Positions 9,326-44,893 of a DNA stretch of 64,000 nucleotides are shown piece by piece. The notes under the pieces were generated by a model. That model was not told the origin of the DNA. It saw only the letters and a list, made by a program, of their open reading frames with translations, and did no database searches. The first letter of the stretch is position 1; every line of letters starts with the position of its first letter. The position numbers and the translations under genes were made by a program. The stretch is from assembly GCA_903871605.1 (NCBI GenBank), contig CAIQHF010000026.1, forward strand, positions 1-64,000, written 5' to 3'. The stretch is from an uncultured Sphingomonadaceae bacterium (lineage in GTDB: Bacteria > Pseudomonadota > Alphaproteobacteria > Sphingomonadales > Sphingomonadaceae).

Positions 9326-9403
9326 GTGCTCCTGCGGAAGCAGGAGCCCAGATCGGCGAGCTCCGCGCCCGAAGCCCTGGGCTCCTGCGTGCGCAGGAGC
9401 ACG
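9326..9403. repeat. Paired palindromes (GCTCCTGC...GCAGGAGC), inverted pair
   Basis: Two 20-base hairpins, GCTCCTGC-ggaa-GCAGGAGC (9328-9347) and GCTCCTGC...GCAGGAGC (9381-9400), face each other about 33 bp apart; the flanks (GTG... and ...CCCAG / CTGGG...CAC) are also inverted. This is the layout of a REP doublet (BIME/REPIN). The same sequence class recurs at 16252-16332. It sits directly behind gltB and could protect or end the mRNA. Confidence 0.8.
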
Positions 9404-9421
9404 GTGATGGTCTTCTTCTAT

Positions 9422-9495
9422 GCTCCGGCGAAGGCCGGAGCGTTGTTTGGCCGCGCGCGGCACCCGCTTCCCGACGCTCGGGCCTTCGCCGGAGC
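9422..9495. repeat. Paired palindromes (GCTCCGGC...GCCGGAGC), inverted pair
   Basis: Hairpin GCTCCGGC-gaag-GCCGGAGC (9422-9441) and a partly decayed partner GCTCGGGC-cttc-GCCGGAGC (9476-9495). The same class is found at 43219-43292. It follows the previous doublet by 18 bp, so two different palindrome classes are stacked here. Confidence 0.75.
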
Positions 9496-16251: not shown

Positions 16252-16332
16252 GTGCTCCTGCGTAGGCAGGAGCCCAGGTGAAGCGAGCGCAGCGTCTGCA
16301 ACCCTGGGCTCCTGCCTTCGCAGGAGCACAGG
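16252..16332. repeat. Paired palindromes (GCTCCTGC...GCAGGAGC), inverted pair
   Basis: Hairpins GCTCCTGC-gtag-GCAGGAGC (16254-16273) and GCTCCTGC-cttc-GCAGGAGC (16308-16327), with GTG/CCCAGG flanks inverted relative to each other. Same class and same spacing style as 9326-9403. It lies between lysC and the nitronate monooxygenase gene. Confidence 0.8.
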
Positions 16333-38654: not shown

Positions 38655-39293
38655 ATGCGTGGTTTTGCGTTGGCCGCGCTTGCGGCCCCGCTCCTGCTGG
38701 CGTCGCCGGCCGAGGCCGACGACGGTGCGCCAGCGTCGTGCGAACTGCATATCTGGGCCGCGCCGGCACTCAGGACGGTAACCCAGAGCGCATTGTGGAA
38801 CCAGACGGTGGATCAGGCGATCCACGGCCCGCATCCCGTTCCCGGCCTCAGTGCGCAGGCGCTGCCGCCGGAAGAGCAATTCGCGGTTCTGGAAGCCGCA
38901 GATCCCGGCGCCGGGCTCGGCATCGCCTCGGCGCATGTCGTACGCAACGGCCAGCCGCTGGACGAGCACGCCTCGGCCTCGCCGGTCCGCCATGATCCTT
39001 CGACGACGTACTGCTATGCCGAGCTGATCGTCTCGCATCTCGTCTATGCATCCGATCCGCTGGCGGGCCGGTCGCTCAACATCCTCTTTCAGTTCCGCGA
39101 TTTCCGCACCGGCGCGACGCCCGCGCGCTCCTTCTCGACCTGGAGCCACCGCCCGCTGGCGATCTTTCCCGCCAAGGCCGAAGCGGATTCGGCGGCGGCT
39201 TCGGCCGAGATCAAGACCGCGTTCGGCCAGGGTTTCGCGGATTTCATCGCCAATCTCGCCAAGGCCGAGGCGAAGGCCCGGAAGAAATCCTGA
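38655..39293 (+). CDS. Secreted protein of unknown function, first of a tandem paralogous pair
   Basis: A 212-residue exported protein with a signal peptide (MRGFALAALAAPLLLASPAEA). The mature part starts with CELHIWAAPALR, and later carries STTYCYAELIVSHLVY and SLNILFQFRDFRTG, ending in a charged Ala/Lys-rich helix (FADFIANLAKAEAKARKKS). These blocks recur in the next gene (CELHVWPAERF, SCYSELIVADLFY, ALFIYRDFGA), so the two are duplicates that have diverged. I do not recognise the family. It lies between glmS and glmU with its own 164-bp upstream region, and its partner starts 28 bp after its stop. Confidence 0.75.
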   Translation: MRGFALAALAAPLLLASPAEADDGAPASCELHIWAAPALRTVTQSALWNQTVDQAIHGPHPVPGLSAQALPPEEQFAVLEAADPGAGLGIASAHVVRNGQPLDEHASASPVRHDPSTTYCYAELIVSHLVYASDPLAGRSLNILFQFRDFRTGATPARSFSTWSHRPLAIFPAKAEADSAAASAEIKTAFGQGFADFIANLAKAEAKARKKS

Positions 39294-39321: not shown

Positions 39322-39981
39322 ATGTTGTTCGACACGCTCATGCTCGCCGCCGCGGTGGCCGCCGCCGCCACTCCGCCCGTCCCGCAGGAGGTCGCCGCGA
39401 CGCCCGTCGCCCAGCCGCCGGGGTGCGAACTGCACGTCTGGCCGGCCGAGCGCTTCAGCTCGATGACGACGGGCCTGCTCGGCGGCGGCCTGCTCGATGC
39501 CGCCATCCACGCCGATACCGACAAGAACAACCGCACCCAGATAGCGAGCGCGCTGGACAGCCAGGGCCAGGTCGATGCGCTGAACAGCCTCGATCTCGCC
39601 GCCTTGCTGAAGGTCCATCCAGCCCGCGTGATCGTCCACAACGAGCCGCTGGTCCGCCACACGGTCAACGACATCAAGACCCGGCGATCGGATTCGCAGG
39701 CGAGCTGCTATTCGGAACTGATCGTCGCTGATCTCTTCTACCAGAAGGCCGCGATCTACGGCCGCACCCTGCGCGCGCTGTTCATCTATCGTGATTTCGG
39801 CGCCAACGGGCAGACCGCAACGCGCATCTACAAGAACTGGGGTGGCAACGGGCTCAAACTCTTCCCGCCGAAGCCCGGCGAGGACGTCAGCGCAGCCAAC
39901 GCCGAACTCACGACCGTCTTCAAGGCCGACTTCCAGGAGTTCGCCCGCAACGAGGCTGCCGCGCAGACCGCGAGCCGCTGA
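39322..39981 (+). CDS. Secreted protein of unknown function, second of a tandem paralogous pair
   Basis: A 219-residue exported protein (leader MLFDTLMLAAAVAAAATPPV). It shares the layout of the preceding gene: CELHVWPAERF early, a GLLGGGLLDAAIH segment, two central Cys (SQASCYSELI region), 'LRALFIYRDF', and a closing helix FKADFQEFARNEAAAQ. AGGGGA precedes the ATG at 39322. It converges on glmU with 3 bp between stops. Cotranscription with its paralogue is likely from the 28-bp spacing. Location periplasmic or outer-membrane by inference; function unknown. Confidence 0.75.
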   Translation: MLFDTLMLAAAVAAAATPPVPQEVAATPVAQPPGCELHVWPAERFSSMTTGLLGGGLLDAAIHADTDKNNRTQIASALDSQGQVDALNSLDLAALLKVHPARVIVHNEPLVRHTVNDIKTRRSDSQASCYSELIVADLFYQKAAIYGRTLRALFIYRDFGANGQTATRIYKNWGGNGLKLFPPKPGEDVSAANAELTTVFKADFQEFARNEAAAQTASR

Positions 39982-42172: not shown

Positions 42173-43204
42173 CTATTGTTTCCCGCGCCGCGCCTTCGTC
42201 CACAGGTGCCGCGCCAACATCGCGGGCGGCATCCGCAGCCAGTGCGAGCGGACGTAGAAGCCCAGTCGCGTGAAGGGATAGCGTTGCCGCCCCCAGCCGT
42301 CGCGCGCGAGCAGGCGACGACGATAGAGCGCGTCGCCTGACGGCCGGCCGCTCCAGCCGGGGGGCACCGCCGTTCCATACAGATCGGCCGACAGACGAAC
42401 CGCGCGCCGCACCGGCGACGCCAGATCGTGTAGCGCCGCGCGGGCAGCGAGCGTTTCCCAGAACGCGTCGGCATCGCCGAACTCGCGCAGCAGCCGGTCG
42501 ATGTCCCACAGGTTGCGCAGCCCGCCAGCCATGTCGCCATCGGCGAACAGGTGCGCCGCGGCGTGGACGACCATGTCGGCGGGCGAGAGCATCGACAGCC
42601 CGCCCCCGGCCGCGGCGCCGAGCGGCAGCGCGTCGGCGATCAGCGCGGCGGCATCGGGCGTCGGTCGCGCGGTCGGCGGCAGGATGGTATGGTGGACGTC
42701 GATCATCCGATCGCGTGTCCGGTGGATCAGCGGCGGCAGTTCGTGCATCCAGCGGCGGTAATAGGCGTCGTCATAGGCGTCGGCCTTCACCCACTCCCAC
42801 CCGGCCACGATCAGCGCGCGCTCGACCGCGGGCAACGCGTCGCGCGGCACCAATATGTCGAGATCGCCGATCGCCCAGCCCCGCCCCGCATCGAGTCCCG
42901 CCGCGACGAACGCCGTCCCCTTGAGCAGCACGACGGGCACGCCCAGACCGACCAAGGCACGGCGCGCCATCTCGGCCTCCCACAAGGCGGCACGACGCTC
43001 TTGCGCGGCGCCCTCGGCGGCGTCGGCGAGGATACGGGCAACCGCGGGCGGCACGGCACGCGGATCGAAGCGGACGGCCAGCGTGCCGATCAGCCGCTCC
43101 GCCCGCGCCGCGGTGAGCAGCGCGGTCCAGTCGTCGGCGCCGAGACCGGCCACGCTCGCCGGATCGCGCAGTGCGGCGACGAGCAGGCGCGCGGCGCGGC
43201 TCAT
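42173..43204 (-). CDS. Nucleotidyltransferase-fold protein of a PqqD/HprK-like operon
   Basis: A 343-residue protein of the NTP_transf_5 type. The motif block VVLLKGTAFVAAGLDAGRGW and WAIGDLDILVPRDALPAVER (~residues 92-125) has the K-G ... R ... D-L-D-I-L-V pattern of this family. Later helices include MLSPADMVVHAAAHLF and LWDIDRLLREFGD. Such proteins are found near HprK-like kinases in lasso peptide clusters and in the sphingomonad 'HPr-rel-A' cassette, where they may transfer nucleotides or phosphates. The ATG at 43204 has CCGGGGATGG upstream. It is separated from the kinase gene by 103 bp occupied by a palindrome pair. Activity unproven. Confidence 0.8.
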   Translation of the reverse strand: MSRAARLLVAALRDPASVAGLGADDWTALLTAARAERLIGTLAVRFDPRAVPPAVARILADAAEGAAQERRAALWEAEMARRALVGLGVPVVLLKGTAFVAAGLDAGRGWAIGDLDILVPRDALPAVERALIVAGWEWVKADAYDDAYYRRWMHELPPLIHRTRDRMIDVHHTILPPTARPTPDAAALIADALPLGAAAGGGLSMLSPADMVVHAAAHLFADGDMAGGLRNLWDIDRLLREFGDADAFWETLAARAALHDLASPVRRAVRLSADLYGTAVPPGWSGRPSGDALYRRRLLARDGWGRQRYPFTRLGFYVRSHWLRMPPAMLARHLWTKARRGKQ

Positions 43205-43218
43205 CCGGCCATCCCCGG

Positions 43219-43292
43219 GCTCCGGCGCAGGCCGGAGCGTTGGAGGATCGGGCGCCGCGTGTGCTTCGCAACGCTCCGGCCTTCGCCGGAGC
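43219..43292. repeat. Paired palindromes inside the PqqD/HprK-like operon
   Basis: GCTCCGGC-gcag-GCCGGAGC (43219-43238) and GCTCCGGC-cttc-GCCGGAGC (43273-43292), the same class as 9422-9495. The pair fills the 103-bp gap between the kinase and nucleotidyltransferase genes and could stabilise the upstream mRNA or reduce expression of the downstream gene. Confidence 0.8.
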
Positions 43293-43307
43293 ACAGGAGC
43301 AGGGTGC

Positions 43308-44162
43308 TCACGCCTCGCCCCACAGCCGCTCGACCAGCGCCAGACCCGCGCCGCTGTCGGGATAGCCGATCGACAGCGCCGGCACGCTCTGGACCAGCCG
43401 GCTCAGCGCGGAAAAGCCCGCCTCGCCGAGCGCGACATAGTTGGTCGAGGCCTGCGTCAGCCGCACGAACGCCTCGCTCGGCGCCATCGCCTCTACTCGC
43501 GCGGCCTCGCCGAAGCGCGGGAACAGCAGCAGCCGGGGTGGCGCCGGCTCGGCCATGCGCGCGATCGCGTCGGCCGGCGGCCGCCAATAGCCGATCGTGC
43601 CCTTGGGGGTCTCCTCCAGCACCGGGCCGACCACCCCGCCCGCGGCGCGCACCGCCGCCACCGCCTCGTTCTTGAGGCTGGCGGCGCGCGGAAAGGGGTG
43701 GATCGCGCCGTCGCTCAGCGCGACGAAGGCGAATTCGTCGCCGAGGAAGCGCCAGCCCGACAGCGCGAGCAGCGTCGCCAGCGTCGACTTGCCCGATCCG
43801 CTCGCGCCCGACATCAGCAGGACGCGCCCGTCGCGCTCGACCGCCGAGCAGTGCAGCAGCAGATGCCGCCGCCAGCCAAGCGCAACCTGCAAATTCATGC
43901 CCATCTCGGCGGCGAGCAGCCCCTGCGCGAGCGGCAGCGGCGCCGCGTCGGGCAGCCAATAATCGCCACCGATCGCCACCGACGGCCGCAGCCAGCGGCG
44001 CCAAGGACGCTCGGGATAGAGCCGCACGGTGAGGTCGGGGATGTCGTCCGCGGGCGTCGGATAGCCTTCGTACAGCGTCCGCACCGCGGCCACCGGCGCG
44101 CGCCACGCCGAGCCGATCCGGAAGCCGACCGCGCCGACGCGCAGGGCATGCGCCTGCCTCAT
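43308..44162 (-). CDS. HprK-related serine kinase-like protein
   Basis: A 284-residue protein with the HPr kinase fold. LLLHCSAVERDGRVLLMSGA aligns with the HprK stretch 'HGV..D..G.GVLI.G', and the P-loop GASGSGKST is at ~119-127; GDEFAF (~141-146) supplies a Walker B-like acidic pair. It lacks the N-terminal HprK domain, and the canonical HprK signature helix is not evident. It matches the TIGR family called HPrK-rel-A as far as I can judge. Its ATG overlaps the stop codon of the PqqD-like gene (ATGA), indicating coupled translation. HPr itself is not nearby, so the target is probably another protein or peptide. Confidence 0.82.
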   Translation of the reverse strand: MRQAHALRVGAVGFRIGSAWRAPVAAVRTLYEGYPTPADDIPDLTVRLYPERPWRRWLRPSVAIGGDYWLPDAAPLPLAQGLLAAEMGMNLQVALGWRRHLLLHCSAVERDGRVLLMSGASGSGKSTLATLLALSGWRFLGDEFAFVALSDGAIHPFPRAASLKNEAVAAVRAAGGVVGPVLEETPKGTIGYWRPPADAIARMAEPAPPRLLLFPRFGEAARVEAMAPSEAFVRLTQASTNYVALGEAGFSALSRLVQSVPALSIGYPDSGAGLALVERLWGEA

Positions 44163-44452
44163 GCCCGCCAGGCGAGCCCGGCCAGCATCAGTTCCTCCAT
44201 CCGCGCGTCGATCATCGCGCTGCCATCGCCTTCGAGATCGTAGCGCGCGGCGAGACGGGCGCGCAGCGTTGCCGCGTCGGCGGGCCCGTCGGCGAGCGCG
44301 TCGAGCAGCTCGGGCGACGGCGACGCCAGAAGATGCGTCGTCCCCGAGCGGCGATGATAGACCGCGACCAGCGCGTCGAGCGGGACCGCGAGGCGCCCCG
44401 CCGGAGGATCGGCGGCATAGACCGGCGCCGTCCCCTCATCGCTCGATGTCAC
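44159..44452 (-). CDS. PqqD-like protein (RRE-type peptide-binding fold) of the HprK-related system
   Basis: A 97-residue protein with the PqqD/RiPP recognition element pattern: VPLDALVAVYHRRSGTTHLL, 'SPELLDALADGPADAATLRA', then MEELMLAGLAWRA at the C-terminus (winged helix). PqqD proteins hold a precursor peptide while partner enzymes modify it. The start is a GTG at 44450-44452, 12 bp after the stop codon of the upstream Tat-exported protein gene. Its stop overlaps the kinase start. The match to the 'HPr-rel-A system PqqD family' is from recall and should be tested with a profile search. Confidence 0.75.
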   Translation of the reverse strand: MTSSDEGTAPVYAADPPAGRLAVPLDALVAVYHRRSGTTHLLASPSPELLDALADGPADAATLRARLAARYDLEGDGSAMIDARMEELMLAGLAWRA

Positions 44453-44464
44453 CGCACCGCCCGA

Positions 44465-44893
44465 TCAGGGCCGCGGGGCCTGCAGCGAGGCGTAGCAGGT
44501 GAAGCCGCTGGTGCCGTGCTGCAGCCGGCGGATATAATTGACATAGGCCTCGCGCGCGGCGGGATCGAAACCTGCGGGCGACTGGCCGTTGATCATGTTC
44601 TTGGCCTCCTCGCCCGTGATCGGGCGCGGCGGCGGACGCACCGCGCCCTGCGTATTGGCGGCGACAAGCCGGCCATCCTGCGCGATATACTGGCCGGCGT
44701 GCGGCGGATCGGGGATGGGAATCTTGCAGTTGAGCACCGAGGCGGCGGTCGACGCGAGCGCGGGCCGGATCGTGACCACGGAGGTTGCCGCGACCGCGCC
44801 GAGCATCAGCACGCCGCGCCGGCCGGCGGCGCCGAGCGGGCCCGCAGCCGCTGCGCCGGTGTCCTTCTCCGGCCTGTCACAATCTTGCGCCAT
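44465..44893 (-). CDS. Small Tat-exported protein, first gene of the PqqD/HprK-like operon and candidate substrate
   Basis: A 142-residue protein with a twin-arginine leader: Arg25-Arg26 in AAGRRGVLMLGAVAATSVVT, cleavage likely after Ala47 (RPALA-S). The mature ~95 residues include a first Cys (SVLNCKIPIPDPPHAGQYIA), a Pro-rich middle (AVRPPPRPITGEEAKNMING) and a conserved-looking tail (YIRRLQHGTSGFTCYASLQA) with a second Cys and several Ser/Thr. No enzyme domain is seen. It is the first of four minus-strand genes with tight spacing (12 bp, overlap, 103 bp). Tat export would fit a protein that is folded or modified in the cytoplasm before transport. The role as substrate is inference. Confidence 0.7.
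   Translation of the reverse strand: MAQDCDRPEKDTGAAAAGPLGAAGRRGVLMLGAVAATSVVTIRPALASTAASVLNCKIPIPDPPHAGQYIAQDGRLVAANTQGAVRPPPRPITGEEAKNMINGQSPAGFDPAAREAYVNYIRRLQHGTSGFTCYASLQAPRP

Follow-up and report, generated by a model that had tools for sequence, protein, structure and literature searches.

Introduction

Close described counterparts of the genes analyzed here are found in lasso peptide biosynthesis. In the account of kinase-tailored lasso peptides in PMC9266682, which includes paeninodin with its kinase PadeK, the kinases ThcoK and SyanK (the latter from Sphingobium), and pseudomycoidin with the pair PsmK/PsmN, kinases carrying a His-Lys-Asp-Asp motif phosphorylate the C-terminal serine of the precursor, and phosphorylation by PadeK precedes maturation. 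PsmN, annotated as a nucleotidyltransferase, is described there as adding hexoses to the phosphoserine or, alternatively, as a nucleotidyltransferase whose action is followed by that of a host glycosyltransferase. The leader of the precursor is bound by an RRE (B1) protein, the recognition element of ribosomally synthesized and post-translationally modified peptides (RiPPs) (PMC9266682). A second parallel is provided by the bufferins and other RiPPs modified by multinuclear non-heme iron-dependent oxidases (MNIOs), where an export signal replaces the usual leader and modification precedes export; masking of the Sec signal by a partner protein until modification is complete is a speculation of the authors (PMC12452194). 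Here we describe a cassette of four genes in the first 64,000 nucleotides of contig CAIQHF010000026.1 from an uncultured Sphingomonadaceae bacterium, a stretch referred to below as the window. The cassette encodes a small protein with a twin-arginine translocation (Tat)-type signal, a PqqD-like protein, an HprK-related kinase and a nucleotidyltransferase-fold protein.

The kinase and PqqD-like families have a name, the HPr-rel-A system, under which NCBIfam lists TIGR04352 and TIGR04353 with family names that state neither function nor substrate; the Tat-type proteins tested match no family over cut-off. In full-text searches of the Creative Commons-licensed part of PubMed Central, which leaves most subscription journals outside, no study of this system appeared among the papers listed. 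The comparisons reported here indicate that the three other cassette proteins probably tag the small protein chemically while it is still in the cell and that its export follows; many proteobacteria have a similar arrangement of genes. The named system thereby gains a candidate client, present with the kinase in nearly every locus examined, as well as a candidate modified residue (within the family) and a proposed order of events.

Identity of the cassette

Profile searches placed the window cassette in the HPr-rel-A system. The HprK-related kinase A (284 aa; 43308-44162, minus strand) scored 225.7 bits against TIGR04352 (cut-off 200), and the PqqD-like peptide-binding protein encoded beside it (97 aa; 44159-44452, minus strand) scored 58 bits against TIGR04353 (cut-off 35), so both of the assignments suggested in a preliminary description of this DNA passed the curated thresholds. 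The NTP_transf_5 nucleotidyltransferase-fold protein (343 aa; 42173-43204, minus strand) passed PF14907 with 164.6 bits (cut-off 31.2). The Tat-type exported protein of 142 residues (44465-44893, minus strand), which we propose as the substrate, had no match at E≤1 to any model of NCBIfam or Pfam. The gene order, the coordinates and the ATGA overlap between the PqqD-like and kinase genes were as the preliminary description had given them. Judged by these matches the cassette is an HPr-rel-A member with a regular fourth component that is named by none of the family models searched.

Co-occurrence of the four genes in Sphingomonadaceae

If the Tat-type protein is the client of this system it should accompany the other genes, a test that the preliminary description had suggested. 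The kinase was found over cut-off in 61 of 199 sampled family genomes. A single-protein search at E≤0.001 recovered the Tat protein in 58 genomes, every one of them kinase-positive (Fisher p 4e-47, a statistic that ignores kinship), and gave no match in the 138 kinase-negative family genomes, where a very divergent copy could escape. In the remaining three kinase-positive genomes, all of one genus (G005, G099, G161), the position of the Tat gene is occupied by a divergent copy. A Tat-type partner was thus present in 61 of 61 kinase-positive genomes, with some copies weak or fragmentary, such as the fragment at a contig end in G085.

The order Tat, PqqD, kinase, nucleotidyltransferase on one strand was seen in 57 of these 61 genomes, including that of the window. 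All parts are kept in G042 and G122, where the Tat gene lies far from the cassette on the same contig, and in G040, where the Tat and PqqD-like genes are on one contig and the kinase and nucleotidyltransferase genes on another; the cassette of G085 is split by the contig end. Within the six sampled genera that contain both states (g1, g22, g36, g50, g53, g68), the Tat and kinase genes were either both present or both absent, and four additional family genomes from the phylum-level sample (L213-L216) also carry the Tat gene. A profile scan of named genomes gave 264 relatives, of which the best 80 loci were kept; this set overlaps the 199-genome sample. All four genes are in order in 79 of the 80 loci, and in the other the contig ends behind the PqqD-like gene. 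Because of this co-occurrence in both the family sample and the named genomes, a Tat protein found mostly without the other three genes is not what the data show, and we regard the Tat protein as very probably a dedicated partner of the other three genes.

A record titled Microvirga sp. SRT01 (L295) contains a Sphingomonas-type cassette, which may point to a mislabelled organism or to transfer.

Signal, body and tail of the Tat-type protein

The Tat assignment is based on an Arg-Arg pair, an uncharged stretch, an Arg before a cleavage-like site and an Ala-x-Ala sequence, all of which are conserved among homologues. The pair precedes a hydrophobic stretch in 80 of 80 named loci, with the start codon found in 77, and Arg26 is invariant across the 61 sequences of set A3 (60 of 77 locus sequences plus the window protein; a further set, A4, holds 39 of 75 plus the window protein). 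For L079 no in-frame Arg-Arg pair was found. The window's genome encodes tatC. Among the named records listed, from which records of its own genome may have been excluded, the highest identity of the Tat protein is 75%, to S. oligoaromativorans.

Conservation is unevenly distributed along the protein. In the 61 sequences, residues 1-23 had a pairwise identity of 0.13, whereas the Tat-type signal region that follows (residues 24-48, GRRGVLMLGAVAATSVVTIRPALAS; 44750-44824, minus strand), which would serve as leader for the PqqD-like protein, reached 0.70; the values were about 0.57 in the body (residues 62-112) and 0.88 in residues 127-139. The top 13-residue segment by identity was residues 129-141 (SGFTCYASLQAPR; 44471-44509, minus strand) with a value of 0.918, so that the C-terminal tail is the most conserved part, in agreement with the preliminary description. 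Within it, Cys133-x-x-Ser136 (44486-44497, minus strand) was kept in all 77 homologues for which a start was located, the count excluding L220, L230 and L267 from the 80 loci, and is also invariant in sets A1 (27 sequences) and A3; Ser136 is the proposed phospho-acceptor. The run of loci L063-L126 gave 60 Tat matches, of which L079 was dropped; of the remaining 59, two lack the tail, one probably broken by an indel that also splits the kinase (L065) and one at a contig end (L126).

The signal region was compared with that of a Tat-type PhoD control, a single family in which 30 loci yielded 28 ORFs, 20 of them with a signal, and 16 sequences after four had been removed by eye. At matched body identity of 0.25-0.55 the signal identity was 0.46-0.56 for the cassette protein versus 0.31-0.36 for the control; at body identity of 0.55-0.65 the difference was smaller (0.60 vs 0.52). 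By this comparison the putative Tat signal of the cassette is unusually constrained.

An AlphaFold2 model of the Tat protein was of moderate quality, with a mean predicted local distance difference test score (pLDDT) of 66 and a predicted template modeling score of 0.52. Block means were 82-92 for residues 61-120, then 73, and confidence fell to 58 for residues 131-140 and to 50 for residues 141-142. The model suggests that the conserved tail lies outside the confident core, as would be expected of a recognition or modification site. No fold match with Z≥2 was found among the 66 chains compared, a result that does not show a new fold, and no credible sequence relative was found in the PDB.

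Kinase and nucleotidyltransferase

Sequence alignment of the kinase with HPr kinase/phosphorylase matched the P-loop GASGSGKST (residues 119-127; 43782-43808, minus strand), the His and the first Asp. The aligned residues, corresponding to the His, the P-loop Lys and the Asp-Asp pair of HPr kinase, are His104, Lys125 and Asp142, found in 112 of 112 sequences, and Glu143, found in 111; Thr127 is likewise present in all 112. The kinase model (pLDDT 94.6) has a predicted fold of the PEPCK/HprK type. Among the chains compared, the full-length model matched phosphoenolpyruvate carboxykinase best (Z 16.4, root-mean-square deviation 4.3, 269 residues), and its Foldseek matches include HPr kinases. 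Identity of the protein as an HPr kinase/phosphorylase was rejected on the basis of a TIGR00679 score of 13.7 bits versus a cut-off of 240. The kinases that tailor lasso peptides are HprK-like as well.

In the nucleotidyltransferase-fold protein Lys94, Gly95, Asp113 and Asp115 are present in 106 of 106 sequences and Asp168 in 105 of 105. We take Asp113-x-Asp115 and Asp168 to be the catalytic carboxylates, from what is known of polymerase-beta-type folds. Both enzymes retain their predicted catalytic residues.

Partners outside the family

Wider sampling gave an over-cut-off kinase in 11 of 385 genomes at class level and in 61 of 398 at phylum level; family members are among these genomes. The non-family set consisted of 46 of the 58 over-cut-off loci; L178 was excluded, its kinase being below cut-off. 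A Tat-type protein is encoded directly upstream in 42 of the 46 loci, namely 41 classified ones and L197. A strict Tat pattern was found at this upstream position in 37 of 46 loci, versus 64 of 1601 (4%) for the remaining ORFs of 85-320 aa that these loci contain. The mature bodies of these partners mostly differ, and widely, and for seven of them, drawn from both of the tail classes described next, no family over cut-off was found.

A motif of the form Cys-aromatic/aliphatic-x-Ser-(Phe/Leu/Ile/Tyr/Val) occurs at or near the C-terminus in 26 of the 41 classified non-family partners, for example as ...SCWTSF, which is comparable to GFTCYASL of the window protein; in L173-L176 the Cys-x-x-Ser motif lies about 25 residues before the end. 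The tail of L197, outside the classified 41, also ends in a motif of this type. The tail classes are pattern-based, without a chance control, and are given for 44 loci, of which L213-L215 are family members. With 26 of 41, Cys-x-x-Ser was rejected as a universal signature. Since the tail motif is not universal, the signal region is the feature common to all Tat-type partners.

Tat proteins with an SPGYW-like motif form a separate class, found in L169, L172, L182, L183, L202, L208, L209, L211 and L212 and, by eye, in L207. Several of them appear by eye to have a Cys-x-Ile/Val-Ser-Gly start and are without the Cys-x-x-Ser tail.

Association with exopolysaccharide and glycosyltransferase genes

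A feature that the preliminary description did not include is the company that the cassette keeps outside the family. Relatives of XrtA/PEP-CTERM-type exopolysaccharide genes were found in 31 of the 46 non-family loci, with two or more kinds in 23, using tblastn at E≤1e-20 with one representative per gene, so that some matches are possibly paralogues. The XrtA-type glycosyltransferase relative stp2 was present in 16 of 46 and stp1 in 15 of 46 of these loci. The XrtA-type glycosyltransferase, amidotransferase and Prs gave no match in the window or in the family loci (up to 17 kb). In the family, XrtA itself was over cut-off in 56 of 61 kinase-positive versus 73 of 138 kinase-negative genomes (p 2e-8, uncorrected for kinship). 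The window's genome encodes XrtA on another contig (C36), and in G052 and G056 XrtA lies about 13 kb from the kinase.

Six of the 80 named loci have extra genes between Tat and PqqD-like gene, a GT4 glycosyltransferase gene in L264, L268, L281 and L286 and other genes in L246 and L276; together with L122, which comes from the family set, this makes five family-type loci with a GT4 gene at this position. These GT4 genes and the XrtA-type glycosyltransferase relatives fit, without proof, a sugar-bearing product.

Proposed mechanism

We favor, with somewhat better than even confidence, a mechanism in which the four genes form a single cassette for protein modification and export. The PqqD-like protein would bind the N-terminal Tat signal as a leader in the cytoplasm, and in the bound state would present the Tat protein to the enzymes and delay its export. 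The HprK-related kinase would phosphorylate Ser136 of the C-terminal Cys-x-x-Ser tail, after which the nucleotidyltransferase-fold protein would elaborate the phosphate with a sugar or nucleotide, in the way described for a lasso peptide and the pair PsmK/PsmN. The Tat system would then carry the modified protein out in its folded state, the signal would be cleaved, and the product would act in the periplasm or at the surface, possibly together with exopolysaccharide. The contact between PqqD-like protein and signal, the modified site, the chemistry, the order of steps, the export route and the final function are parts of this scheme that we infer. That the Tat protein is the substrate is itself quite probable.

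The scheme relies on analogy at two points. The similar enzyme types and the near-terminal, invariant serine suggest that the two steps described for pseudomycoidin also take place on a protein, which makes kinase first and nucleotidyltransferase second the likely order; the wording 'phosphorylated or nucleotidylated' of the preliminary description is amended in this sense. Unlike a lasso peptide, the candidate client of the window cassette is a Tat-type exported protein whose core is folded in the model, and its Tat signal would be the leader. The second analogy is with the bufferins, which as described combine Sec signals, iron-dependent oxidases and DUF2063-type partners, whereas the window combines a Tat-type signal, a kinase/nucleotidyltransferase pair and a PqqD-like protein. 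The latter is a natural candidate for masking the signal, here of the Tat type. A more specific proposal is tentative and less likely than not: that the Tat signal is an RRE-bound leader, that the PqqD-like protein holds back export until the HprK-type kinase and the nucleotidyltransferase have placed a phospho-linked sugar or nucleotide on the tail, and that it thereby exerts quality control over a decorated surface protein. In many other proteobacteria this protein would be tied to XrtA exopolysaccharide, perhaps as an anchor or primer. If the proposed mechanism is true, lasso-peptide-type tailoring would extend from peptides to folded, Tat-exported proteins, RRE-type proteins would gain a role as Tat-signal chaperones, and this chemistry would be linked to the exopolysaccharide loci of other proteobacteria.

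Several observations weigh against this mechanism. In the family the cassette lies mostly at one phoR/phoU-like, glmU-like site (relatives of the window's neighbours phoR, phoU and glmU, named by eye, occur in 52, 49 and 47 of 60 family neighbourhoods; for the phoR-like neighbour PhoR is the best NCBIfam match, below cut-off), and much of the linkage there is therefore due to common inheritance. The window protein was not among the matches of TIGR01409, the Tat model of NCBIfam, at E≤1, and in five of the 58 genomes with a Tat match (G007, G040, G052, G085, G150) the match is limited mostly to the signal region. Outside the family, no adjacent Tat-type gene was found in four of 46 loci (L170, L195, L196, L204), and the Tat profile at E≤0.01 matched 21 of 46, the rest being recognized by signal pattern and position. 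The PqqD profile matched 36 of 46 loci, and seven of the ten misses still have a Tat-type gene; the nucleotidyltransferase profile matched 40, with some of the six misses perhaps lying beyond the available stretch. For both kinds of miss the gene may be divergent, cut off by a contig end or truly absent. Of the 41 classified non-family partners, 15 have no Cys-x-x-Ser motif (nine of these have the SPGYW-like motif and six neither), and therefore one fixed site cannot serve the whole system. Of the substrate proposal in the preliminary description, the regular partnership and the conservation of the tail were borne out. Finally, in the lasso peptides described in PMC9266682 it is the C-terminal serine itself that is phosphorylated, whereas six residues follow Ser136 in the window protein, and the His-Lys-Asp-Asp motif of the kinases described there is His-Lys-Asp-Glu in the window kinase.

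Alternative explanations

The Tat protein could be the substrate at another site, with the tail (and Cys133) as a recognition or sorting tag and the change made at the conserved segment after the signal, Ser52-x-x-x-Cys56, or elsewhere, and although we consider this unlikely, the invariance of Cys133 and Ser136 is matched by that of Ser52 and Cys56. Where partners lack the tail motif, the mature part often begins, judged by eye, with a stretch rich in Cys and Ser, and the exactly two cysteines that follow the signal in 72 of 77 homologues would fit a periplasmic disulfide. The position of Ser136 near the C-terminus, on the other hand, resembles that of the acceptor in the kinase-tailored lasso peptides as described, and the tail lies outside the confidently modelled fold, like an enzyme-accessible site. 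The association with exopolysaccharide genes (31 of 46 non-family loci) and with XrtA in the family (56 of 61 versus 73 of 138 genomes, uncorrected for kinship) would also agree with a dedicated partner that is not a substrate. The target of the kinase, nucleotidyltransferase and PqqD-like protein would then be an exopolysaccharide, a lipid-linked intermediate or a different peptide, with the Tat protein acting on the product outside the membrane. This appears rather improbable to us: the PqqD family membership implies that the client is a peptide or protein, conservation of the tail would be left without explanation, and no other constant small ORF was recognized in the cassette, in a limited look in which non-family clustering used ORFs of at least 110 aa.

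There is, in our judgment, very little chance that the cassette is a RiPP pathway in the narrow sense, in which a small tailored peptide would be cut out of the Tat protein as its long precursor. Genes for RRE (B1) proteins, kinases and nucleotidyltransferases are described from lasso peptide clusters, and lasso-like loci occur elsewhere in the window's genome, but the model of the mature Tat protein has a confident core (about residues 61-120), and the four-gene unit showed neither a transporter nor a protease gene. In the window's genome the lasso protease model PF13471 matched on contigs C36 and C22, with no match on the cassette contig C26, and the lasso cyclase model NF033535 matched on C36 and C22 only, none over cut-off and none on C26. 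With the protease and cyclase matches located on other contigs, a lasso peptide cluster was rejected.

Locus organization and neighbouring features

The host is a Sphingomonas-type genome of 4.28 Mb that contains one over-cut-off kinase and one PF14907 protein in total. Two lasso-like loci were noted in it, L332 (G000:C36:50632) and G000:C22:160908, at which PF13471 matches lie beside cyclase-like matches below cut-off. The cassette consists of four minus-strand ORFs. The PqqD-like ORF has a GTG start 12 bp downstream of the Tat stop codon and, as noted above, overlaps the kinase gene; a gap of 103 bp then precedes the nucleotidyltransferase gene, so that coupling is tight for the first three genes only. 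An anti-phage defence role was rejected, with a single weak PADLOC match of the kinase (mads_8, 14.8 bits, E 0.0036) and none of the other three proteins. The cassette is divergent from the phoR-like gene. Pho regulation was rejected as well: across the 200 bp upstream of the cassette, in the window and in 35 loci, a Pho-box consensus scored 8.44, no better than in shuffles (8.42).

The gap between the kinase and nucleotidyltransferase genes holds a paired palindromic element (43214-43297) resembling repetitive extragenic palindromes (REPs), whose core has 12 matches in the window versus 0.87 expected. As repeats outside the mechanism, these palindromes were rejected as a part of the cassette. 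Further paired REP-like palindromes lie near 9329-9494 and 16255-16326 of the window. Elsewhere in the window, the ORF at 38655-39293, which matched neither Pfam nor NCBIfam and is without a relative in the 60 family cassette neighbourhoods, is adjacent to an ORF ending at 39981 (plus strand); the two encode exported-looking proteins that appear paralogous by eye, with a CELH-I/V-W motif.

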